Of a stretch of 64,000 nucleotides of DNA, positions 7,090-55,040 are shown piece by piece (the first letter of the stretch is position 1; every line of letters begins with the position of its first letter). The notes under the pieces were generated by a model. It made no database searches and was not told the DNA's origin. It saw only the letters and a program-made list of their open reading frames with translations. The stretch is from positions 1 through 64,000 of the forward strand of contig NZ_JAENIJ010000007.1 of NCBI RefSeq assembly GCF_016595435.1, read 5' to 3'. The stretch is from Luteolibacter pohnpeiensis (GTDB lineage: Bacteria > Verrucomicrobiota > Verrucomicrobiia > Verrucomicrobiales > Akkermansiaceae). The position numbers were made by a program, and so were the translations under genes.

Positions 7090-7210
7090 GCCTAACCATG
7101 CGCTGCAGCCAACAGCCGACAAGCTCTGCATTTTACATTGATGGATAACTTGAACACAACATTGCGAGTCAAGCTCATCGCCCGGTGTCGCTGAGTTTGG
7201 GTCGTTCGCG
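7090..7210 (+). repeat. attC-like site
   Basis: R'' GCCTAAC (7090-7096) is the exact complement of its cassette start. R' is GTTCGCG (7204-7210). The middle carries CAGCCAACAGCCGACAAGC and GAGTCAAGCTCATCGCCCGG, the latter echoed at 11202-11221. Confidence 0.85.
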
Positions 7211-7221
7211 AGAAATATACA

Positions 7222-7761
7222 ATGCATAGGGTAAGGAAGGCCGAAACTGGTGATGGCAAGCGCATCGCCGAGATTCAGGTAGGAGGTTGGCAAAGTGCTT
7301 ATCGGGGAATCATCCCGGATGACTACCTGAATGCCCTGAATCCTGAAAAACGAGTCACGTTCTGGTCTCAGCAGGCCGATAACGAATCCAGTGATCTGTT
7401 CGTCACTATCCTGGGGGCAACCGTCACTGGTTTTTGCCACTTGATTCCCTCGAGAGATGATGACGGGACCGGTGTGGCTGAGATCGCTGCGATATACGTT
7501 GATCCATGCGCGTGGCGTCAGGGATGTGGTAGGCAACTCTGCGAGGCTGCCTTCGAAGCAGCTCGTAGGCGCGGTGCTTCGTCGGTAACGCTCTGGGTGC
7601 TTGAGGCGAATTTGTTAGGACGGAGCTTTTATGAGGCCATCGGTTTTCGGACTGATGGATCGACTAAATCGGAGGAGAGGCCGGGATTCTTGCTTGAAGA
7701 AGTGCGCTACCGAATCGACCCAAGCAAACGCGAACAGGATGTTACAGGTGACGGGCATTAA
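7222..7761 (+). CDS. GNAT-family N-acetyltransferase (second copy, unrelated type)
   Basis: 179 residues from ATG 7222. N-terminal motif RKAETGDGKRIAEIQVGGWQ with YRGIIPDDYL is typical of PhnO/RimI-like GNATs. The central IAAIYVDPCAWRQGCGRQL (about 92-110) contains the acetyl-CoA-binding RQGCGR loop, followed by VTLWVLEANLLGRSFYEAIGF (about 126-146), the conserved WVLexN..a..FYe..GF end. The last ~11 residues are encoded by the attC site: R'' CGCGAAC starts at 7729 within the frame and the stop is at 7759-7761. The native stop was probably lost in the same deletion that shortened the site. Confidence 0.85.
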   Translation: MHRVRKAETGDGKRIAEIQVGGWQSAYRGIIPDDYLNALNPEKRVTFWSQQADNESSDLFVTILGATVTGFCHLIPSRDDDGTGVAEIAAIYVDPCAWRQGCGRQLCEAAFEAARRRGASSVTLWVLEANLLGRSFYEAIGFRTDGSTKSEERPGFLLEEVRYRIDPSKREQDVTGDGH

Positions 7762-7770
7762 ACGTCCGCC
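7729..7770 (+). repeat. Internally deleted attC-like site
   Basis: R'' CGCGAAC (7729-7735) pairs exactly with the cassette start GTTCGCG (7204-7210). The body AGGATGTTACAGGTGACGGGC parallels the site at 988-1047 but lacks the second arm, and the right end is GTCCGCC (7764-7770) instead of GTTRRRY. Confidence 0.6.
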
Positions 7771-7776
7771 AGAAAG

Positions 7777-8190
7777 ATGGAGCCGTTCAGTGTAAGTTTC
7801 AGTTTCACTGATCACAACCGTTATCGAGCGGCACCACAGGCATTCGGGCGGATCAAGCACTGCATGGATTTTCAAGCATGGCCGGAGAATGAGGATGAGT
7901 GGCGAGGCTACTTTGATCTGCGCGCGTTGGATCATTTTTGGTGGCCGACCGCATCTGAACTTGAGGATTGGAAGAGACTTTATTTCGCCGCCCCCGTGGA
8001 CAAACGCCAAACGCCCCCCCGGTTGCAACATCCCTGGGATTTCATGTCGATGCCCGACGCTTTCAAGAATGGCGATGATGTGCTTGTTAACTTTGAAGAA
8101 AACGGAGAGCGAGGCGGGAGGTCGACCTTCGACCCACACGGTGATCCCTACAGCGACTGGGTGCATGCTTGCGATCATCGAAGCCTTTGA
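7777..8190 (+). CDS. Hypothetical cytosolic protein, probably frameshifted near its end
   Basis: 137 residues from ATG 7777, rich in Trp/Phe and acidic residues; no family recognised. The last residues (ACDHRSL) look out of frame. Removing one T near 8169-8171 would continue as AAIIEAFDMEITEVNE and stop at 8216-8218, exactly before the R'' box GGCGAAC (8219-8225), which is where intact cassette genes in this array end. I therefore regard the annotated stop as the result of a one-base insertion or a sequencing error. A 45-bp piece of this gene (7946-7990) is repeated at 9315-9359. Confidence 0.65.
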   Translation: MEPFSVSFSFTDHNRYRAAPQAFGRIKHCMDFQAWPENEDEWRGYFDLRALDHFWWPTASELEDWKRLYFAAPVDKRQTPPRLQHPWDFMSMPDAFKNGDDVLVNFEENGERGGRSTFDPHGDPYSDWVHACDHRSL

Positions 8191-8218
8191 CATGGAGATC
8201 ACCGAAGTGAATGAGTAG

Positions 8219-8238
8219 GGCGAACAAGGCAGTTAACA
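8219..8238 (+). repeat. Minimal attC-like remnant
   Basis: GGCGAAC (8219-8225) and GTTAACA (8232-8238) are separated by only six bases. The first matches 6 of 7 bases of the complement of the cassette start GTCCGCC (7764-7770). The hairpin body is gone, so the site is probably inactive. Confidence 0.5.
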
Positions 8239-8244
8239 AAAACA

Positions 8245-8706
8245 ATGAAGACATTCCTCCTCGCATGGATCGCGGCTGCTTCAGTCGCGAGTGCCGCAAT
8301 CATCGCCGACGGAAGAGGATTTTTTCCAGTGATGGTGCAGGTCGTTGACCCCAATTCTGGCACTCCCATCAAAGGCGCAAAGGTGCGACTAGAGGACGCG
8401 GGAACCTACAGAGAATTTGAGCTCGATCCGAAGCGCCAGACCAAGCTGCTGCCGGATTCCCTTGGTAAGCCTGTCGATACCAACGCTGAGGGAGTGGCAG
8501 TCGTCTTTTACTTCGGTGGGTTCTCCAGCTCCACAGTTGACGGGAAGTCGATTTATTCGAGAACCTTAGCTGGGACGATTGTCGTCGAGCTGGATGGCAA
8601 GGAGATCTACCGTTCGACGCTGAAGGATTGGGCGGAGAAAAAGAGGTTTAGGGCGGATTCAAGCTCAGTGCCGTGGATCGTCGTCTCGCCAACCAACGCG
8701 CAATAA
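8245..8706 (+). CDS. Secreted protein with Ig-like/carboxypeptidase-regulatory-like fold
   Basis: 153 residues from ATG 8245. Signal peptide (TFLLAWIAAASVASA, cleavage after ASA near residue 17). The mature sequence begins VMVQVVDPNSGTPIKGAKV, the classic start of a carboxypeptidase-regulatory-like or CnaB-type beta sandwich, and continues with DTNAEGVAVVFYFGG, the usual TDxxGxa strand. The protein is a single such domain, possibly binding at the cell surface. No catalytic part is seen. Confidence 0.65.
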   Translation: MKTFLLAWIAAASVASAAIIADGRGFFPVMVQVVDPNSGTPIKGAKVRLEDAGTYREFELDPKRQTKLLPDSLGKPVDTNAEGVAVVFYFGGFSSSTVDGKSIYSRTLAGTIVVELDGKEIYRSTLKDWAEKKRFRADSSSVPWIVVSPTNAQ

Positions 8707-8711
8707 TTCAA

Positions 8712-8803
8712 GTCCAACAAAGTCGAGGTGCCAAACCGGCGATCAGCCCGATAATTGACTTTGAAGCTTCCCTCCCGCCGCAGATGGCCTCATATGTTCA
8801 GCT
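8712..8803 (+). repeat. attC-like site, second family
   Basis: R'' GTCCAAC (8712-8718), body GGCGATCAGCCCGATAATTG, ACTTTGAAGCTTCC and CTCCCGCCGC, and R' GTTCAGC (8797-8803). The body aligns with 3557-3689. Confidence 0.7.
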
Positions 8804-8809
8804 AAATAC

Positions 8810-9259
8810 ATGACACCACATCAACGCTCATTGATTCAAGAGGTCCTAGGGTCTGACCAAGCAACATTCAGAATCTTGGATCAAGACAAGGCGAGATTCG
8901 CCGACTGGGAATACACGGATTGGGAAAAGGATCGAGCGCGAGACGAAGCCGATTGGACGGAAACCAGGAAGCGTTATGAGCAATTGAAGGACGAAGCTCT
9001 CCAAATCATATCGGACGAACTCGGTCCTTGTGCAGCAAATAAGGATGGCTGGGATGAAGCCACCCCATGCTGGGCGTCAGGGGGACTCTTTGCCTTGTGG
9101 AAGGTCCAAGAGAGATTTGTCTCTGTATTTCTGAGCTGGGATAATCCTGAAGATCCGTCGTTTTTGATCGTGGCGTGTGCAAGTCAGGATCAGTTCGCAT
9201 TAGGTCCGGCTTCCGCCGATCCATGGGAGACCGCGTGGATGGAATTCGGTGAATGGTAA
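8810..9259 (+). CDS. Hypothetical cytosolic acidic protein
   Basis: 149 residues from ATG 8810, six bases after R' (8797-8803). No signal peptide. The N-terminal half is helical and very acidic (EYTDWEKDRARDEADW), the C-terminal half beta-rich with FVSVFLSWDNPEDPSFL and ends in TAWMEFGEW. No recognised family. The R'' GCCGAAC (9267-9273) matches 6 of 7 bases of the complement of the cassette start. Confidence 0.62.
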   Translation: MTPHQRSLIQEVLGSDQATFRILDQDKARFADWEYTDWEKDRARDEADWTETRKRYEQLKDEALQIISDELGPCAANKDGWDEATPCWASGGLFALWKVQERFVSVFLSWDNPEDPSFLIVACASQDQFALGPASADPWETAWMEFGEW

Positions 9260-9266
9260 TTCTGCG

Positions 9267-9480
9267 GCCGAACACGCCGTGACAGGCAACCCTACGGGCT
9301 GGACTGCTCCAATTCGACCGCATTTGAACTTGAGGATTGGAAGAGACTTTATTTCGACGAGCCGTGAGAACGAAAAACCTAAGAAGAACAAGTTGAGCCA
9401 CCGAACCAGCGAAAATGTCCTTCTTTGAATTCCTGCTTCCTTTCCGCCGGTCCCATACTCTAAATCTTTCGCTACAAAAA
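9267..9480 (+). repeat. Mosaic of two attC-like sites around a gene fragment
   Basis: The left element starts with GCCGAAC (9267-9273) and ACGCCGTGACAGGCAACC. The right element runs from about 9388 (AGAACAAGTTGAGCCACCG) to TTTCGCT (9467-9473) and resembles the family of 3557-3689 and 8712-8803 (CTGCTTCCTTTCCGCCGG). Between them lies 9315-9359, copied from the gene at 7777. Confidence 0.55.
9315..9359 (+). pseudogene. 45-bp fragment of the 7777-8190 gene
   Basis: Positions 9315-9359 match 7946-7990 almost perfectly: I see two mismatches, C to T at the fourth codon and C to A near the end. It codes for the TASELEDWKRLYF segment of the parent gene but is flanked by attC-like DNA on both sides, so it is a relic of a second copy of that cassette. 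Confidence 0.85.
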
Positions 9481-9482
9481 CC

Positions 9483-9959
9483 ATGAAAACACTAATCACA
9501 TTCATGACATCAGTACTGATGGCATTGCCATCTTTTGGTTCCACATCAGACGGCATGCAGGAGTTTCTACGAGTGCTGGCATTTAATGCTGACGGCGGCC
9601 ATGTAGTGGACCATCAGGGGGAGTTGCATTTCCCACCCACCCTGGCAAAACAACCCGATAAATTTGAAGGAAAGGTAGAGGTTGCCACTATCAACACGGA
9701 ATGGGATCCAAGTATGTGGGAGAAATTCTCGGCCTCACGGGGATTTGCCTATGCTACCCCTCCGACCCTGATCGATGACGTGCCCCTCACCGCTAAGCTC
9801 TTTGCCACCGAACCGAAAAAGCTTTGCCGGACCCTTGATCTCCCCCGGCTGGGTCGATTGGACTTGGTCGCAGAGGTGAAGCCTGGGCAAGAGGGTAAGA
9901 CCATGGTGACGATCACTGTAGTCCAGCGCACACAATTTTTCGTCGCCTCCATAAAATAA
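9483..9959 (+). CDS. Hypothetical secreted protein
   Basis: 158 residues from ATG 9483. Signal peptide (LITFMTSVLMALPSFGS, cleavage near residue 20). The mature part contains a FEGKVEVATINTEWDPSMW segment and two likely beta strands at the end (MVTITVVQRTQFFVASI). No known family. The signal-peptide region starts MKTLITF, similar in style to other cassette proteins here, but the bodies are unrelated. Confidence 0.68.
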   Translation: MKTLITFMTSVLMALPSFGSTSDGMQEFLRVLAFNADGGHVVDHQGELHFPPTLAKQPDKFEGKVEVATINTEWDPSMWEKFSASRGFAYATPPTLIDDVPLTAKLFATEPKKLCRTLDLPRLGRLDLVAEVKPGQEGKTMVTITVVQRTQFFVASIK

Positions 9960-47579: not shown

Positions 47580-49226
47580 ATGAAATCCGCGATTTTCGCT
47601 AGATCCTATCTGGCGTCCATTGTCTCATTGGTTTTGGTGGGGAACGCCTCAGCGCTCGATGAGACCCCCTCCACCACCGAAGGGCCTTACTACACCATGA
47701 GTTCGCAAAACACCGTGCTGAACTCGAGCAGCTCGAATTACGCGCCGCACCTGCAAACCACCGAGGGAACGGATAATGATCTGATCCACATCTATTCCAC
47801 CAGCTCGCAAGCCACCGGGACGGTCACCAAGCTCTCTGGCACTTTGGTGAATACATCAGGCACAGCGATCTCCGGCGCTCTGATTGAGCTTTGGGAGGCT
47901 GACAATGGAGGGATATATTGGTATTCATCCTCTTCCAGCAGCACCAATAACTATGCAAATCGGGATAAAAATTTCCAAGGTTATGGCACCTGCACCACCG
48001 ATTCTTCAGGTGCTTGGTCTTTCCTAACCATCAAACCCGGACTTTATACCGGCCGAATCCGGCATTTTCACCTCAAGGTCCGGGTGAACGGAACCGAGTA
48101 TGTGACTTCGCAGTTGATGCCGTCAGACGAGGTAACGGCCACTCCCAGTGACAACGTGGTATCTAGTTTAAAATCAACTTATGGATCATCAGGACTCGCC
48201 CGCTGCGTTTACACTCCTACCAGCGGGACGATCACCTGGGACAACGAAACCTACACAGGGCAACTGGTTGAAGACCGCCAGCTCGTCATCAACTATACCC
48301 CTTCGACTACCGCACCTACGATTACCACTGAACCCACATCGGTAACCGTGACAGAGGGCGAAAGCGCCACTTTTTCCGTCGTCGCCACTGGAACTTCTCC
48401 ACTCACCTATCAGTGGTATGAAGTCGACAGTGGAGCCATCACCGATGCAACGAGCGACACCTACACGATTTCCAGCACCACCACTGCTGACGCTGGGAGC
48501 TACTATTGCATCGTGTCCAACACTGCCGGATCTGATACCAGCGAAACGGTCACGCTAACAGTCAATGCAGCCAGCACTGCTCCGACCATTACTGATGATC
48601 CGGATTCGGCAACGGTCGACATCGGGGATTCAGTTGATTTTACCGTGGTTGCAGATGGCACATCTCCGTTAACCTATCAGTGGTACAAAGGTGAATCCAC
48701 CATCTCAGGTGCCAACAGTGAAACTTACAGCATTGATTCAGTTGCCCTGGCGGATGCGGGAAGCTACTACGTTATTGTTTCCAATTCGGCGGGAACAGAC
48801 ACGAGTGACAGCGCCTTATTGAGTGTCAACCAGCCATTCACAACCTTTCTTAATTACTACGAAATTAGTAGTGAATCCGCAACGGACGATCACGATAGTG
48901 ATGGCATCCCCAATATTTTGGAGTTTCTGCTTGGCGGAGACCCAACCACTCCTGACTCAAGCATCCAACCCGCCAGTGAATTCCAAACGGTAGATGGCTC
49001 CAACGTTCTGGTCTATTCATTCTACGTGGTTAGCGAAACGGGAAGCACCAGCTGGAATATCGAATACTCCACGGAATTGACCGAGTGGACCACGGCTACC
49101 GACGGCACCAACGGCGTGAGCATCGTCACCGAGGAAACTGAAACAGAAGGATTGAATCACGTAACCGTGACCATCCCTGCCACAGACACCCGCTTCTTCG
49201 CCCGCCTGCGTGTGACAACGCCTTGA
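47580..49226 (+). CDS. Secreted intradiol-dioxygenase-like protein with Ig domains
   Basis: 548 residues from ATG 47580. Signal peptide 1-25. An intradiol ring-cleavage dioxygenase-like domain spans about 28-240: GTLVNTSGTAISGALIELWEAD (about 85-106), GYGTCTTDSSGAWSFLTIKPG, and the ligand region YTGRIRHFHLKV with the His-x-His and a Tyr. Two Ig-like repeats follow (each with SPLTYQWY and DAGSYY, about 250-420), then DHDSDGIPNILEFLLGGDP, a calcium-binding thrombospondin-3-like loop, and a beta-rich tail. Probably cell-surface aromatic or lignin-related chemistry; substrate unproven. Confidence 0.8.
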   Translation: MKSAIFARSYLASIVSLVLVGNASALDETPSTTEGPYYTMSSQNTVLNSSSSNYAPHLQTTEGTDNDLIHIYSTSSQATGTVTKLSGTLVNTSGTAISGALIELWEADNGGIYWYSSSSSSTNNYANRDKNFQGYGTCTTDSSGAWSFLTIKPGLYTGRIRHFHLKVRVNGTEYVTSQLMPSDEVTATPSDNVVSSLKSTYGSSGLARCVYTPTSGTITWDNETYTGQLVEDRQLVINYTPSTTAPTITTEPTSVTVTEGESATFSVVATGTSPLTYQWYEVDSGAITDATSDTYTISSTTTADAGSYYCIVSNTAGSDTSETVTLTVNAASTAPTITDDPDSATVDIGDSVDFTVVADGTSPLTYQWYKGESTISGANSETYSIDSVALADAGSYYVIVSNSAGTDTSDSALLSVNQPFTTFLNYYEISSESATDDHDSDGIPNILEFLLGGDPTTPDSSIQPASEFQTVDGSNVLVYSFYVVSETGSTSWNIEYSTELTEWTTATDGTNGVSIVTEETETEGLNHVTVTIPATDTRFFARLRVTTP

Positions 49227-49252: not shown

Positions 49253-49296
49253 TTGGCGGAAATTGTGTAAGCTGCACGTTTCTCAATTTCCGCCAA
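49253..49296. promoter_or_regulatory. 13-bp inverted repeat upstream of the SPFH operon
   Basis: TTGGCGGAAATTG (49253-49265) and CAATTTCCGCCAA (49284-49296) are perfectly complementary with an 18-base spacer, 28 bases before the first gene of the SPFH operon. It may be an operator, or a terminator arm combined with the hairpin at 49212-49238. Confidence 0.5.
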
Positions 49297-49324: not shown

Positions 49325-51082
49325 ATGGAATCATCTTCTCCACCCCGAGCGTTGCTCAGCTGTTATGCCATCGCATTCACTGCCTGCGCCATTGGCGGGG
49401 AGTATCTAGCACAATCCGCCGGGCTGGCCTTTTTCCGCACCCTGGCGATGCTGTTGGGCTGGATCAGTTTGGTTGCGATATCCAGTTTGATTCCCCCATT
49501 ACGCTTTCGTTTACGACCTCTACTTCTTGCATTGGGGACCATCGCGGTGGTGGCAGTTCCTGGACGATTCTATTTCCCCAGATGGGGCATTATCGCTGGA
49601 GTATCGGACGAACGACTGAAACTCATCGCCGTCGTTCTGGCGGTGATCACCTTCATATTGCACTTTCTGGCAACTTACGGTTCACATAGTAGAAAAGAAT
49701 CCCCGCATATCGCCCTCGATACTCTGGTTCCACTCGCCCGATTGGCAGCGGCTGCCCTAGCGGTGGCGATCGTAGTAATCGTCGCTCTGTTGTTTTTTCA
49801 AAAGCTCTGGATCCGCCAGGCTGAAATCCTTTTTGGCGCACTAACTTTCATCCTGATCACGGAAGAAATTGTTCGAGCGATTGCCCGCCTGTATCTCCCG
49901 AAACGCTTGCGGCGGGCAGCTATATTTGGTCATGGTTTAGTCTTACCCTCATTGTTTGGTCAAGCGGGACCGCTAGCATCCCTTTCCGCAAGTATGGAAA
50001 GCGCATTCGGCGTAAAGTTGGGCGACACCTGGCTTATCCATTTGGCGAAGAAGCTGGCGGCTCCTCTTATCCTACTAACCATTCTCGGATTGTGGGCAGG
50101 CACCGGCGTTACCCGCATTGCCGTCGATAGCCAGGGAGTGCTATCTACCAACGGATTCTTCCAGCCACTGCCTCTAAAACCCGGTCTCCATTTCCATGCT
50201 CCTTGGCCGTGGGGCCAAGTTACACCTGTTGTCACCGGTAAAATCGAAGAGATTTCGCTCGGCTTCGAACGTGATCTCTCCGGCCCCATTCTGTGGGCAG
50301 AAAAGCATTTCGAGGGAGAACAAAATCTACTCGTCGGAGGTGGCGAGGAACTTCTTACGGTCAACGTCCCGGTTCACTATCGCATCCGCGATGCCGTGTC
50401 CTATTTGACGACAGGCGGCGATCCACGCACCGCTCTTACAACACTTGGATACCACGAACTCCTCCGCCTGACTCCTGCTTATTCCGCTTTCGATTTGATG
50501 ACTTCCCGACGTGAGGAAGTTGCTTCCTTACTCAAGGCGAGACTGCAAACCGAGGTGGATCGCCTGGGGTTGGGAATAGAAATTGTCTTTGTGGGGTTCA
50601 AAGATGTTCATCCCCCGGTTGAAGTTGCCCCCGCTTACCAGGACGTGGTCAGCGCGGAGGAACAGCGGCTATCACTGATCGACCAAGCGCATACGGCCTC
50701 GGTCACCAACCTTTCCGAGGCTCACATCAGCGCTCTCCAAGCGACGATTACCTCGCAAGCATTGGCCGAGGAACGGGTTGCGCGGGCCGAGGGTGAGTCT
50801 TCCAGATTTCTTGCCCCCGCGGCAGTCTGGCAAGAACAGCCGGAAGTTTACGCCACCCGGCTCCGATTGGAGGCTATTGAAAATGCATTAAGTGGTATCC
50901 ACCAGCTCTATCTACTCCCAGCTGGGGTTCATCAACACAGCACCTTCCTTTTTGGAAATACCAGTGCCCTAGCGCCTACGACCACAGGGAGAAATTCCAA
51001 CATTCCGGCTCCTGTAATCCGTCCAGCGAATCCGGTGATTAAGCGAACCGTTACTTCTAAACGAGCAGCAGCGAAACCCTAA
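49325..51082 (+). CDS. HflK-like SPFH protein with polytopic N-terminal domain
   Basis: 585 residues from ATG 49325. Residues 1-260 contain about seven hydrophobic segments (e.g. LAMLLGWISLVAISSLI, LIAVVLAVITFILHFLA, AAAALAVAIVVIVALLFF), unlike normal HflK, which has one. From about 262 an SPFH/band-7 domain starts: DSQGVLSTNGFFQPLPLKPGLHFHAPWPWG, then VHYRIRDAVSYL and a helical coiled-coil tail with AEERVARAEGESSRF. First gene of a four-gene unit, 11 bases before the next. SPFH proteins form large membrane cages; the client here is presumably the linked P-type ATPase. Confidence 0.85.
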   Translation: MESSSPPRALLSCYAIAFTACAIGGEYLAQSAGLAFFRTLAMLLGWISLVAISSLIPPLRFRLRPLLLALGTIAVVAVPGRFYFPRWGIIAGVSDERLKLIAVVLAVITFILHFLATYGSHSRKESPHIALDTLVPLARLAAAALAVAIVVIVALLFFQKLWIRQAEILFGALTFILITEEIVRAIARLYLPKRLRRAAIFGHGLVLPSLFGQAGPLASLSASMESAFGVKLGDTWLIHLAKKLAAPLILLTILGLWAGTGVTRIAVDSQGVLSTNGFFQPLPLKPGLHFHAPWPWGQVTPVVTGKIEEISLGFERDLSGPILWAEKHFEGEQNLLVGGGEELLTVNVPVHYRIRDAVSYLTTGGDPRTALTTLGYHELLRLTPAYSAFDLMTSRREEVASLLKARLQTEVDRLGLGIEIVFVGFKDVHPPVEVAPAYQDVVSAEEQRLSLIDQAHTASVTNLSEAHISALQATITSQALAEERVARAEGESSRFLAPAAVWQEQPEVYATRLRLEAIENALSGIHQLYLLPAGVHQHSTFLFGNTSALAPTTTGRNSNIPAPVIRPANPVIKRTVTSKRAAAKP

Positions 51083-51093
51083 CTTTATTTTCC

Positions 51094-52032
51094 ATGTCCC
51101 GTTTGCAAACTTTAGTCCGAATTCTCATCGCGCTAGCCGTTGCCGCGTTTCTCGGTTTCGTCATGTGCGGCTTTCAGGTTTCATCAAATGAATGTGCTGT
51201 GCTGACACGTTTCGGGTCTCCTGTCCGAACTTTCACTACGCCTGGGTTGCATCTGAAATATCCATGGCCCATCGATCATGTCACTCGATTCGACCGCAGG
51301 CTTCGATTTTACGACACGCGTGTGTCCGAAGCTCTCACCCGCGACAAACGCAATGTCATTCTACCAGTCTTCATCGCTTGGAGAATCGAAGATCCTTTAA
51401 AATTTCTCCAAGCGCTCGGCACACCGGAAGCCGCCCCCTCCAAGCTCGACTCACTCGCAACCTCAGCACGAAACGCCTTGTTGGGTGGCTATGATTTCCA
51501 GCAACTCGTCGCCACCGATCCAGGCAACCTTAAGCTTACCGAGATCGAAACTCGTTTGACGAACATGATCGCTCCGCAAGCGCTCGATGCTTTCGGGATC
51601 GTCATCGAACAATCCGGGTTCCAACGCATCGCCCTCCCGGAAGCAAACACCACCTACGTGTTCGATCGCATGCGTGCTGAACGTGGTCAATATGCTGCCA
51701 AGTATCGCGCAGAAGGTCGCCAGGAAGCAGAAGAACTCCGAGCCAGAACCGATGCCGAAAAAACCGTTTTGCTCGCTGAGGCTGCAAAACTTGCCGAGGA
51801 GACCCGAGGTAAAGCTGAGGCCGAAGCCGCACACATATACGCTGAAGCCCATGCAAAATACCCAGATTTCTACCGGTTTACCCGCGAACTCGAGTCCTTG
51901 CGCAAAGTCACTCAATCCAACACCACGCTGATTCTCGATACCGACACCTCCCCGTTTGACCTGCTCAAATCCAGCCCTCTCCCTGTCACCCCCGAGCAGT
52001 CCGGAAGTGACGATTCAAATCCGAATCGCTGA
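51094..52032 (+). CDS. hflC: HflC-like SPFH protein
   Basis: 312 residues from ATG 51094. One membrane helix (IALAVAAFLGFVMCGF, about 12-27), then the SPFH core: NECAVLTRFGSPVRTFTTPGLHLKYPWP (about 33-60, range only), RDKRNVILPVFIAWRIEDP (about 83-101), a Glu/Ala-rich coiled coil (EGRQEAEELRARTDAEKTVL) and DFYRFTRELESL, the conserved HflC end, followed by TTLILDTDTSPFDLL. This is the canonical HflC layout. No ftsH is in the window. Confidence 0.9.
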   Translation: MSRLQTLVRILIALAVAAFLGFVMCGFQVSSNECAVLTRFGSPVRTFTTPGLHLKYPWPIDHVTRFDRRLRFYDTRVSEALTRDKRNVILPVFIAWRIEDPLKFLQALGTPEAAPSKLDSLATSARNALLGGYDFQQLVATDPGNLKLTEIETRLTNMIAPQALDAFGIVIEQSGFQRIALPEANTTYVFDRMRAERGQYAAKYRAEGRQEAEELRARTDAEKTVLLAEAAKLAEETRGKAEAEAAHIYAEAHAKYPDFYRFTRELESLRKVTQSNTTLILDTDTSPFDLLKSSPLPVTPEQSGSDDSNPNR

Positions 52033-52038
52033 AGTCCC

Positions 52039-53142
52039 ATGTCACAACGCCGCCGTAATGCCCGTGTCCGCTCCGGACACGCTCTCTTCAGTGCCTTTGC
52101 CTCCACCATTGGATTGCTTCGCTGGCTGCTCGCGGGCTTGGGCGTGTTTTATTTCTGCTCCGGGATCACCCGCGTCGCCCCGCATGAAGACGCCGTCATT
52201 TATCGCTTCGGGCGTCTAATTCCAGACGTTCATCCCCCGGGTCTGCTTTTTGCTCTTCCAGAGCCTATTGACCGCGTGGTCCGGATACCCACGCGCACCC
52301 AGCATGAAGTTTTCCTTCGGGCTTGGGCACCTGATGAAGAGAGTGTGGTAATATCAGCCGGTGGCATGCCGTCAGCCCCACTTCGGCCCGGAATGATCAT
52401 CAGCGGGGTAAGCACCGCGACTATGAATTCCGATATGGCTGCGGCAGCAGATTTCCCCATCCCGCCGGGTCCTGGGCTTCACCCCTACACCCGTGGCTAC
52501 ACGCTTACCGGTGACGTCAATTTGGTCCAGGCTCGCTTCATTGCCCGCTATCGCATCACCGACCCGATTTCTTGGTTGAGTCACTCGTCAACAGCCGATG
52601 CCGCCAAGTTCATCGACGCCTCCTTCTTCGATGCAGCCACCCGCGTTCTCGCAGGAATGTCCGTCGATGATGCACTCGGGGCCGGAATGGAATCCTTCCG
52701 TACAAAAGTTCTGACACTCGCTCAGGAGCGGCTCGATGCACTCAAACTCGGTGTCACTCTGGTTGCGTTTGAGGTGAATACGCTCACACCGCCTGAAGCA
52801 ACAGTTGCTGCTTTTGCCGAAGTTACCAGTGCCCGAGTGGAGTCACGAACTCTCGTGGAAAACGCCAGGACGTATCGTGCCCGCGTCATTCCCCGTGCGA
52901 AATCAGACTCCTATCGTCTGCGTAGCGATGCGGAGGCAGCCGCAAGCCAGCTGCTCTCCCGTGCCAGTGCCGAAGCCGCTTCATTTCTAGCACTTGCAAA
53001 CGAACACACCGCTGCCCCTCTCCTCCTCGAGTCTCGTCTCAAGGCAGAAACCCTTGAAGCCGTGTTCCCTCAAATCAAAACCTCCACCATTCTACCATCG
53101 GATGGTGGATCGATCGATCTCCTCCTCCCCGGCAACCCATGA
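52039..53142 (+). CDS. Second HflK-like SPFH protein
   Basis: 367 residues from ATG 52039, six bases after the hflC-like stop. Single hydrophobic helix near 24-46 (LLRWLLAGLGVFYFCSGI), band-7 domain with EDAVIYRFGRLIPDVHPPGL (about 53-72) and ARFIARYRITDPISWL, and a C-terminal coiled coil with YRARVIPRAKSDSYRLRSDAEA. It carries an insertion of about 60 residues (RAWAPDEESVVISAGGMPS onward) between the first strands of the domain. Its stop overlaps the ATPase start (ATGA, 53139-53142). Confidence 0.85.
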   Translation: MSQRRRNARVRSGHALFSAFASTIGLLRWLLAGLGVFYFCSGITRVAPHEDAVIYRFGRLIPDVHPPGLLFALPEPIDRVVRIPTRTQHEVFLRAWAPDEESVVISAGGMPSAPLRPGMIISGVSTATMNSDMAAAADFPIPPGPGLHPYTRGYTLTGDVNLVQARFIARYRITDPISWLSHSSTADAAKFIDASFFDAATRVLAGMSVDDALGAGMESFRTKVLTLAQERLDALKLGVTLVAFEVNTLTPPEATVAAFAEVTSARVESRTLVENARTYRARVIPRAKSDSYRLRSDAEAAASQLLSRASAEAASFLALANEHTAAPLLLESRLKAETLEAVFPQIKTSTILPSDGGSIDLLLPGNP

Positions 53143-55040
53143 ACCAATCTCAAGCCGCAAGTCCGACACCTGTAGAAGCGCTCCCCGAGCCAGCAGTCCC
53201 CCTTTTCTCCGGCATCCACCTGCGCGCGACGCTTGTTGCCATCGGCGTGGTCTGTTTTCTCATCTCCTTGTTGTTGAAGTGGATGAGACCCGATCAACAA
53301 GAGCTCTCCTCACTCTGGGCGATGGCTGGTCTCGCCCTATCCGCTCTTCCCGTTTTTTATGATAGCCTCACCTCATTGAAGTCAGACGGGTTTGAAGCCA
53401 CCCGTTACTACATGGACCAATTTGTCGCCCTGGCCATTCTTGCCTGCTTTGCGACCAGCCAATATGCGACCGGCATTGTTGTCGCAGCCATTTTAATCAT
53501 CGGGCAGATCCTTGAAGAACGAGCCACACTTGGGGTTGAGGAAGCCATCCAGTCGCTGACTCGACTCACACGCGTCAAAGCTCGACGCGTGTGTGAAGAC
53601 GGGAGCGAAGAAACAGTCGACTCTTCACTGCTGCAGCCGGGTAATACCATCCGACTGCGTCCAGGAGACACAGTCGGTGCCGACGCGGAGATCCTGACAG
53701 GCCACACCACTCTCGACCAAGCCTCCATCACCGGTGAATCACTGCCAGTGGATGCAGCACCCGGTACCCGAATCTACGCAGGAACCACAAACCTCACCGG
53801 TTCGGTCGATGCCCGGGTTCTTCTAACCGGCGGTGACACGGTATTGGGTCACGTCGCCGCCATCGTTGAAGAAGCAAAAACTTCCCGCGCGCCTGTCATG
53901 CGCCTCATTGATGACTACACCCGCTACTACATGCCCGTGGTCCTCATTCTCGTCGGCTTCGTTCTCTTTTTCACTCGTGATGTGCAGCGCGCCATCTCCG
54001 TCATCATCGTCGCGATGCCGTGTGCCTTTGTCCTTGCCAGTCCGGCAGCTATGGTTGCAGCACTCGCAGTGGCATCCCGGATGGGAGTGCTTGTCAAAAG
54101 TTCCCGCTCATTCGAAGTTGCACAAGGCATCGACACCGTTGTTTTTGACAAGACCGGCACCCTTACCACTGGCCGACTCGCCGTCACAGCGATTCATCCC
54201 TCTGCCTCCATCACGGAAAGTGAACTGCTGACCTTGGCAGCCTCTTTGGAAGCAGGTTCGACGCATCCAATCGCCCGAGCCATCATCACTGCCACCGAGG
54301 AAAGAAATCTTTCCTATCAACAACTGCCCGACATCACTGAGGTCCCTGGCCAAGGCATCCACAGCGGCCCATTCGCCATTGGCCGTAGGGAATTTCTCAG
54401 TTCCCGAGGCATCGAGACCCCGGACACCGCAGATACTGACTCCGCACTCCATCTAGCCGGACATGGCGTCTGGCTTGGATCCATTCAATTCATCGACACC
54501 CTACGCACCGAAGCCAAAGAAACAGTTGAGGCATTGCGACAGCTCGGCATCGAAGAATGCCTCATGCTAACCGGAGACCGCCCAGCAGTCGCTCGGGAAA
54601 TCTCCGATCTCGCCGGACTCGACCGCTATGTGGCATCTTGCTTGCCCCAAGAAAAACTGGAAGAAGTTCTCTCTCTGAAGGAAGCGGGCCGCAGTGTTCT
54701 GGTCATCGGTGACGGGGTAAACGATGCCCCGGCACTAGCTGCGGGAGATCTTGGAGTCGCCATGGGAGCTTTGGGTAGTGATGTTGCCATAAAAACATCG
54801 GACATTGCACTCATGGGTAACGATTTACGCCATCTGTCTCACTTCCTTGCTCTCAGCGACAGGACGCTGAGCATCATCAATCAAAACCTGCTATGGGGAT
54901 TTCTCCTGATCGTGCTCTTCATCATCATCTCCGCCCTAGGCCTCGTCAGTCCCATCATCGCCGCTTGCTTACACGAATTTTCCGCATTCTTCGTCATTTT
55001 CAACAGCGCCAGACTTCTGCGGTTTGATGAAGCCAGCTAA
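53139..55040 (+). CDS. P1B-like heavy-metal-type P-type ATPase with MPC motif
   Basis: 633 residues from ATG 53139. No N-terminal metal-binding (HMA) domain. A-domain ITGES (about 202-206), P-domain DKTGTLTTG (about 337-345), N-domain HP motif STHPIARAI (about 374-382), hinge GDGVNDAPALA (about 524-534). The ion-site motif in TM6 reads IIVAMPCAFVLASPAAM: MPC where P1B pumps have CPC, SPC, TPC or APC. The last helices carry CLHEFSAFFVIFNSARLL, resembling the HExxS/T element of P1B-4/5 groups. Overlap with the upstream SPFH gene implies a joint complex. The transported ion is unclear (Co, Zn, Ni or Fe are candidates). Confidence 0.9.
   Translation: MNQSQAASPTPVEALPEPAVPLFSGIHLRATLVAIGVVCFLISLLLKWMRPDQQELSSLWAMAGLALSALPVFYDSLTSLKSDGFEATRYYMDQFVALAILACFATSQYATGIVVAAILIIGQILEERATLGVEEAIQSLTRLTRVKARRVCEDGSEETVDSSLLQPGNTIRLRPGDTVGADAEILTGHTTLDQASITGESLPVDAAPGTRIYAGTTNLTGSVDARVLLTGGDTVLGHVAAIVEEAKTSRAPVMRLIDDYTRYYMPVVLILVGFVLFFTRDVQRAISVIIVAMPCAFVLASPAAMVAALAVASRMGVLVKSSRSFEVAQGIDTVVFDKTGTLTTGRLAVTAIHPSASITESELLTLAASLEAGSTHPIARAIITATEERNLSYQQLPDITEVPGQGIHSGPFAIGRREFLSSRGIETPDTADTDSALHLAGHGVWLGSIQFIDTLRTEAKETVEALRQLGIEECLMLTGDRPAVAREISDLAGLDRYVASCLPQEKLEEVLSLKEAGRSVLVIGDGVNDAPALAAGDLGVAMGALGSDVAIKTSDIALMGNDLRHLSHFLALSDRTLSIINQNLLWGFLLIVLFIIISALGLVSPIIAACLHEFSAFFVIFNSARLLRFDEAS

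Follow-up and report, generated by a model that had tools for sequence, protein, structure and literature searches.

The ring of the human SPFH protein stomatin lies on the cytoplasmic side of the membrane. It encapsulates aquaporin-1 and UT-B (PMC12407830; structure 9zd2), so that an SPFH ring encloses a transport protein; the system is eukaryotic, its clients are channels and not a metal pump, and neither gene linkage nor fusion is involved. In E. coli, HflK and HflC, each with one transmembrane helix, an SPFH domain and a coiled coil, form a periplasmic assembly around a membrane client, FtsH (structures 7wi3 and 9cz2; PMC13220708). In Pseudomonas aeruginosa, the zinc-responsive hmtA locus (PA2434-PA2439, with PA2439 as the first gene) carries a P1B-type ATPase and three genes annotated as HflC family, HflC and HflK family (PMC4542158, PMC8531726, PMC11761036). 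In this study, we analysed a stretch of 64,000 nucleotides of Luteolibacter pohnpeiensis (contig NZ_JAENIJ010000007.1, positions 1 to 64,000, referred to as the window), in which a block of four genes at 49325-55040 encodes three SPFH proteins, designated S1, S2 and S3, and a P1B-type ATPase. Compared with HflK-HflC-FtsH, the block has three SPFH proteins instead of two, no adjacent FtsH, a predicted CDF-fold domain in S1 and a P-type ATPase as the proposed client. We consider it probable that S1, S2 and S3 form a hetero-oligomer that would house the pump, presumably for zinc or another transition metal, under a putative periplasmic dome.

A conserved block of three SPFH genes and a P-type ATPase

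Based on the open reading frame (ORF) coordinates, the four genes are separated by 11, 6 and -4 bases, the last being an ATGA overlap. The Band_7 domain of Pfam was detected in S1, S2 and S3 (53, 82 and 59 bits against a cut-off of 23.6), while the product of the fourth gene matched E1-E2_ATPase and HAD hydrolase in Pfam and, with 512 bits over a cut-off of 346, TIGR01525 ('heavy metal translocating P-type ATPase') in NCBIfam. S2 passed the HflC profile TIGR01932 (175 bits, cut-off 134), and both S1 (100 bits) and S3 (116 bits) stayed below the cut-off of 159 for the HflK profile TIGR01933. S2 and S3 each have one transmembrane segment by crude hydropathy, and S3 matched E. coli HflK by phmmer at 1.7e-20. 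No FtsH gene adjoins the block in the window; the single FtsH-type peptidase match of the genome, which is 98.8% complete, lies on another contig (C210), and the canonical hflK-hflC pair is found elsewhere (C177). A sequence-only reading had described three SPFH genes and a P1B-type ATPase with these spacings and without FtsH, in full agreement with the above. Its division into two HflK-like proteins and one HflC-like protein holds for S2 and S3, but S1 is not simply HflK-like, its N-terminus having a predicted CDF fold. The identity of the block as a standard HflKC pair was rejected, with S1 and S3 under the HflK cut-off, the canonical pair elsewhere and FtsH remote.

A search of 194 genomes of the phylum with the ATPase gave, apart from the genome of the window, 81 matches that exceeded 376 bits, and the surroundings of all 81 were taken (locus counts here and below include near relatives and five contigs taken twice). 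By profile searches, the full block was present beside the ATPase in 70 of the 81 Verrucomicrobiota relatives, 67 of them arranged as S1-S2-S3-ATPase (at one locus S1 is broken into two frames) and three with the ATPase first. As controls, 16 lower-scoring P1B loci were chosen from a longer list, of which two others are the fusions L124 and L125 described below. With the same profiles, an SPFH triplet was detected at none of these 16 loci, L126 having a single SPFH gene 4.6 kb away. A chance cluster is thus rejected, and the genes proved strongly co-conserved, contrary to the outcome that the sequence-only reading had named as damaging to its grouping.

The block is not restricted to Verrucomicrobiota. 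In Planctomycetota, 66 of 149 genomes matched S1 at E 1e-40 or better, many only over the SPFH part. The S1 N-terminus was reached by 42 of these matches; 36 were analysed, L164 and L165 were already in the set (both with the ATPase) and four were left out. The ATPase was present at 22 of the 36 loci. The block was also found on plasmids of cultured bacteria, Rhizobium tumorigenes, Paraburkholderia sprentiae, Burkholderia ubonensis and Klebsiella aerogenes, where the genes are annotated as HflK/HflC or SPFH and P-type ATPase. For one locus each of Rhizobium, Paraburkholderia and Burkholderia, S1 (233-265 bits), S2 (237-249), S3 (134-146) and the ATPase (542-583) were recognised in the right slots, while the Klebsiella block was identified by annotation and an ATPase match. 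Searching plasmids with S1 yielded 50 records, all with less than 80% of the query covered, and 10 were inspected. A Verrucomicrobiota-only system is rejected.

Several features recur around the block. ABC transporter ATPases are located nearby at 59 loci and form one single-linkage cluster, in which types may be mixed; at L108 (8879-10111), such a gene begins four bases downstream of the gene for the pump. A membrane protein resembling an ABC-2 permease, as judged by eye, recurs near the block at 42 loci. An FtsH-type peptidase ORF was detected near the block at one (L065:10709-11674) of 221 loci scanned.

Table 1. Features of the four-gene block, in window positions
Feature	Position	Strand	Description or basis
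S1 gene	49325..51082	+	ATG start, 585 residues; Pfam Band_7 at residues 270-457
CDF-fold domain of S1 (predicted)	49325..49912	+	Conserved metal site absent (pseudo-transporter); structure match, 105-sequence alignment
W324-x3-H328 insertion, S1 SPFH domain	50294..50308	+	Class-wise alignment counts
H429-P-P motif, S1 SPFH/coiled-coil junction	50609..50617	+	Class-wise alignment counts
S2 gene	51094..52032	+	ATG start; HflC-like SPFH protein, single N-terminal transmembrane helix
S3 gene	52039..53142	+	ATG start; HflK-like SPFH protein, single N-terminal transmembrane helix
P1B-type ATPase gene	53139..55040	+	ATG start, 633 residues; DKTGT, TGE, HP and GDGxND motifs
M293-P-C, M4 ion-site motif, first Cys replaced	54015..54023	+	Alignment
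H612-E613, near C-terminal end of membrane domain	54972..54977	+	84-row alignment

Between S1 and the upstream gene there is a perfect 13-base inverted repeat (49253-49265 and 49284-49296), terminator-like by eye but lacking a clear T run. This upstream gene (47580-49226) encodes an intradiol-dioxygenase domain with Ig domains, and its relatives are located near the block also in L144, L145, L146 and L148.

Transporter fusions in the S1 slot and the S1 N-terminus

When the S2 family was searched against 84,980 species, each represented by one genome, 543 confirmed places were obtained, of which the best 80 were analysed. Among these 80, S1 accompanied by a separate ATPase was found in Verrucomicrobiota, Kiritimatiellota, Lentisphaerae, Planctomycetota and a Fermentibacteria metagenome-assembled genome (MAG). 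Elsewhere, the S1 slot is taken by a transporter fused to an SPFH domain. The P1B ATPase and SPFH share one ORF of about 1000 residues at no fewer than nine loci (seven of the best 80 together with L124 and L125; Pfam was run on three), one ORF being cut at the contig start. S2 comes next at each of these loci, and S3 too with a single exception. Fusions of Cation_efflux (CDF) with SPFH amount to at least 17 assigned proteins among the best 80, of which eight were scanned with Pfam and all eight matched, the remaining members being placed by size and similarity. By record title, the Pfam-confirmed proteins derive from Eisenbacteria, Effluviviaceae, Zixibacteria, Spirochaetes, Desulfobacteraceae, Hydrogenedentota, a delta symbiont of Olavius and one bacterium. 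At least six ArsP_1-SPFH proteins were found among the same 80, five of them from Planctomycetota or Phycisphaerae; the genome group to which the Desulfobacteraceae MAG belongs contributed a further two. That three unrelated transporter families occur in the same SPFH slot with the same SPFH genes after them is poorly explained by chance or by errors of assembly, and the fusions argue for a physical complex. In L337 and L310, the S1 protein gave no Pfam transporter match.

Some observations on this slot stand apart. L335 (1942-5007) encodes a 1022-residue protein that ends in an SPFH domain and of which some 700 residues are not recognised by Pfam. In L219, a ZIP zinc transporter (7091-7804) follows an ArsP-SPFH triplet, and in L338, a divergently oriented FeoB gene (7673-9499) lies beside a triplet of which S1 matches the CDF-SPFH profile. 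In the genome group of L218 (G200), SPFH matches lie in frames of 749-1052 residues in five of nine genomes.

The S1 protein of the window is predicted to consist of a six-helix CDF-fold domain (residues about 2-196), a seventh transmembrane helix (about 236-262), the SPFH domain and a coiled coil. The AlphaFold2 model of S1 (predicted local distance difference test score 83.6) had as its top structural match YiiP (Z 15.8, root-mean-square deviation 3.5 over 192 residues), with ZnT3, ZnT7 and SLC30A10 also among the matches and the best unrelated helical bundle listed at Z 9.9; Foldseek alone ranked HflK and other SPFH structures first. A second S1 protein from a distant lineage (L172, score 79.9) matched YiiP with Z 18.4 over 201 residues. 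Profile comparison of S1 with the N-termini of CDF-SPFH fusions gave a probability of 85-95 with the region of the seventh helix and 77-78 without it, against 0.03-4.3 for ArsP and P1B. An ArsP or P1B domain as the origin of the S1 N-terminus is therefore unsupported, the differing helix layouts making these imperfect controls. A crude count of hydropathy and charge gave for S1 seven transmembrane helices, an inner N-terminus, a basic loop of about 57 residues before the seventh helix and the SPFH domain outside, the same helix plan as that of the CDF-SPFH fusions by crude hydropathy.

In CDF transporters, a C-terminal domain follows the six-helix fold. S1 shares the predicted fold with YiiP and the ZnT proteins, but in S1 a transmembrane helix and SPFH replace that domain, and the metal site of the second and fifth transmembrane helices is absent: among 105 S1 sequences, Asp, Glu or His never exceeded 28% in any column there. 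The N-termini of CDF-SPFH fusions keep HxxxD at both places in 14 of 15 cases. No Pfam match to Cation_efflux was obtained for the window S1 at E 0.01, and E180 in the sixth transmembrane helix of S1 is near-invariant. Because a CDF fold is predicted and the metal site is lost, S1 is best read from the models as a dead CDF transporter fused to SPFH, beside a live P-type pump; an active CDF transporter is unlikely, with no conserved Asp, Glu or His in these two helices.

Two motifs mark the SPFH part of S1. In S1 accompanied by a separate ATPase, W-x3-H is conserved (Trp in 115 and His in 109 of 116 proteins), and both residues are present in 9/9 P1B and 16/17 CDF fusions, in 0/6 ArsP fusions and in none of the HflK proteins (0/7 canonical, 0/3 other paired). 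The His before Pro-Pro is found in 113/116 S1 proteins with a separate ATPase and in 9/9 P1B, 16/17 CDF and 6/6 ArsP fusions, but in HflK only in 1/7 canonical proteins, that of this genome, and 1/3 other paired proteins. Both motifs are kept in S1 of the Rhizobium, Paraburkholderia and Burkholderia plasmid loci. As a guess from the alignment, H328 and H429 might serve as metal ligands.

In a tree of 110 SPFH domains, obtained by a quick search and with 37 of 107 inner branches weak, S2 grouped with HflC, S3 formed one group (support 91) apart from HflK, and canonical and paired HflK formed one group (support 98). The five labels of the tree together need four changes, the minimum; S2 and S3 can each be set apart by a single branch, irrespective of the transporter. 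S1 needs three changes and need not be a single clade.

The ion site of the pump and a possible link to zinc

The window pump shares with P1B-type ATPases the profile match and the catalytic motifs DKTGT, TGE, HP and GDGxND, all intact. It differs in its ion-site residues, in its SPFH neighbours and in that no N-terminal metal-binding domain was found by Pfam or NCBIfam. Most relatives of the ATPase have CPC where the window protein has MPC. In the 84-row alignment, 72 proteins have Cys293 without Glu613, seven have Glu613 without Cys293, five have neither and none has both; these counts may reflect a single lineage and do not amount to a statistical test. The combination of x-PC with HE was found in 27 of 133 loci, duplicates included. 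The sequence thus suggests an altered ion site, and a classic copper or cadmium exporter is unsupported, since the first Cys of CPC is gone and Glu613 is gained. The residues xPC and HE presumably resemble the SPC/HE set of P1B-4 pumps. One control P1B locus, L138, has SPC and HEGG. Met-Pro-Cys at residues 293-295 provides the x-Pro-Cys expected of P1B-type ATPases, while in a definition by Cys-Pro-x or x-Pro-Cys, the x is given as Cys, Ser or His, a list that leaves Met outside (PMC8456098).

As to the transported metal, ZnuA was detected in the analysed flanks of 10 of 125 ATPase or block loci (9 of 120 distinct loci), one of which, L052, is without SPFH, and near none of the 16 control P1B loci. 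The chance expectation for such stretches is about 0.7, an estimate based on some 75 ZnuA matches across 59 genomes. In L147, L151 and L162, the ZnuA gene overlaps the ATPase gene or follows it within a few bases, and then come ABC-3 permease genes (by Pfam in L147). The Paraburkholderia block is preceded by zinc ABC genes and a gene for a PCu(A)C chaperone.

The window block and the hmtA locus, for which PMC4542158 lists PA2435 and PA2437-PA2439, have in common that three SPFH genes accompany the ATPase. In a znuA mutant of P. aeruginosa, PA2435 (HmtA), PA2437, PA2438 and PA2439 were increased 5.6-14.4 fold (PMC4542158, Table 2); under zinc depletion, the HmtA and PA2437-PA2439 proteins were elevated, not all significantly (PMC11761036), and in vitro the PA2439 promoter is shifted by Zur (PMC8531726). 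The ZnuABC neighbours and the hmtA locus together point to zinc as the metal. In contrast to the reading proposed here, the passages cited from these papers treat HmtA alone as the transporter and mention neither a CDF-fold domain nor fusions. The only role suggested in them for the HflC/HflK genes is interaction with the metalloprotease HflB (PMC11761036). The sequence-only reading had called a band-7 cage around a metal pump not an established system; the published, zinc-responsive hmtA locus with HflC/HflK-annotated genes qualifies that statement (PMC4542158, PMC8531726, PMC11761036).

The proposed complex and its rivals

That the four proteins make up one complex, as the sequence-only reading had supposed, is well supported because the block is co-conserved and single-ORF P1B-SPFH fusions exist, a genetic and not a biochemical basis. 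By analogy with the HflK/C dome that houses FtsH and with stomatin that encloses aquaporin-1 and UT-B, S1, S2 and S3 should form a periplasmic dome around the pump. In the proposed mechanism, they would assemble like HflK and HflC, building a hetero-oligomeric dome that covers the inner membrane on its periplasmic side. The inactive CDF-fold domain of S1 might serve for docking or seeding, and the patch of membrane enclosed by the dome would contain the P1B-type ATPase. The pump may move zinc or a similar transition metal in homeostasis, most likely in response to zinc limitation, either importing it, which has been claimed for HmtA, or exporting it like other P1B pumps. The dome would then confine or gate the periplasmic side of the pump, possibly to confine the metal, to gate access or to stabilise the pump.

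A number of observations weigh against this reading. Part of the block is missing at 11 of the 81 ATPase loci: three (L080, L083 and L123) lie at contig ends, S2-S3-ATPase occurs without a recognised S1, either lost or too diverged, in L106, L108, L110, L111, L113 and L114, only S3 lies beside the ATPase in L119, and L052 has no SPFH gene within 7 kb on either side of the ATPase. In Planctomycetota, 14 of the 36 S1 loci have no ATPase in the stretch taken, two of these running off their contigs, and in at least four of the 14 an ABC transporter ATPase gene begins within 46 bases after S3 (by eye, one confirmed by Pfam), which indicates that the scaffold is not bound to one pump. The CDF fold depends on AlphaFold models, and helical bundles inflate Z scores. 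The crude charge rule places S2 on the opposite side (one against two charges), and likewise two of six fusion proteins, one of two P1B and one of two ArsP fusions, so that the outward placement of the S1 SPFH domain is tentative. As to zinc, Pfam revealed no zinc gene among the four scanned neighbours of the block in the window, and gene order and annotation are the basis for relating the block to HmtA. The hmtA mRNA was unresponsive to added zinc, with copper being suggested (PMC8531726); in a review, hmtA was excepted from the Zur-bound genes, and the import claim was said to need confirmation (PMC10393844). Deletion of the operon-encoded SPFH proteins PaFlo5-7 of P. aeruginosa, which we infer to be PA2437-PA2439, left growth in LB normal with about 20% of the biofilm lost; zinc limitation is not mentioned in the passages cited, and the terms hmtA, P-type and ATPase do not occur in the main text of that paper on a three-SPFH operon (PMC13086221).

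The variation of the partner among P1B, CDF, ArsP and ABC, together with the 14 Planctomycetota loci at which no ATPase was seen, would also be expected of a generic membrane-microdomain or quality-control module that shares only regulation with the pump and forms no stable complex with it. We regard such a module as rather unlikely, given that three transporter families are fused in one ORF in the same slot, that the S1-type W-x3-H and HPP are rare or absent in canonical HflK, and that every fusion partner named by Pfam is a transporter, the N-terminus of the 1022-residue SPFH protein being unnamed. The SPFH proteins could instead recruit or restrain FtsH so that the pump is degraded when metal is replete, as HflKC does with FtsH clients; S2 resembles HflC and S3 resembles HflK, HflKC binds FtsH (PMC13220708) and a link to HflB has been raised for the hmtA locus (PMC11761036). 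This is improbable, however, since an FtsH-type peptidase ORF was seen at just one of the scanned loci, the match of this genome lies on another contig, a canonical hflKC pair is also present, and the fusions link SPFH to the pump and not to the protease. It is more improbable still that S1 is itself an active CDF-type antiporter whose site has changed, the P1B ATPase being another pump of the same operon that works independently of it: the predicted CDF fold, the HxxxD kept twice in related CDF-SPFH fusions and the near-invariant E180 would fit such an antiporter, but the second and fifth helices lack conserved Asp, Glu or His throughout the 105 S1 sequences.

Beyond the complex of the window, a general class of SPFH-caged metal transporters may be envisaged, a tentative and somewhat doubtful extension. 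An ancient SPFH triplet would have repeatedly captured unrelated metal or metalloid transporters (CDF, ArsP, P1B and perhaps ABC) as fusion or operon partners. Its periplasmic dome would be a chamber in which the pump and periplasmic carriers exchange metal without letting it escape, along a route that includes the S1-type His 328 and 429. In the window lineage, the captured CDF transporter would have died and become a dock, and the P1B pump would have taken over.

SPFH domes, P1B pumps and CDF transporters are already known. No description of SPFH-metal-transporter fusions, of a dead-CDF subunit or of transporter swapping was found among the papers listed by searches of an open-licence library, and subscription papers may differ. 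If the proposed complex is true, bacterial SPFH proteins would gain a concrete class of clients besides FtsH, a job would be suggested for the HflC/HflK-like genes of the hmtA locus, and it would become possible to test the claimed metal import by HmtA together with the natural partners of the pump. The fusions and the cultured carriers such as Paraburkholderia and Rhizobium are tractable material for structure determination of what would be a new, testable way of organising zinc-type metal transport in bacteria.

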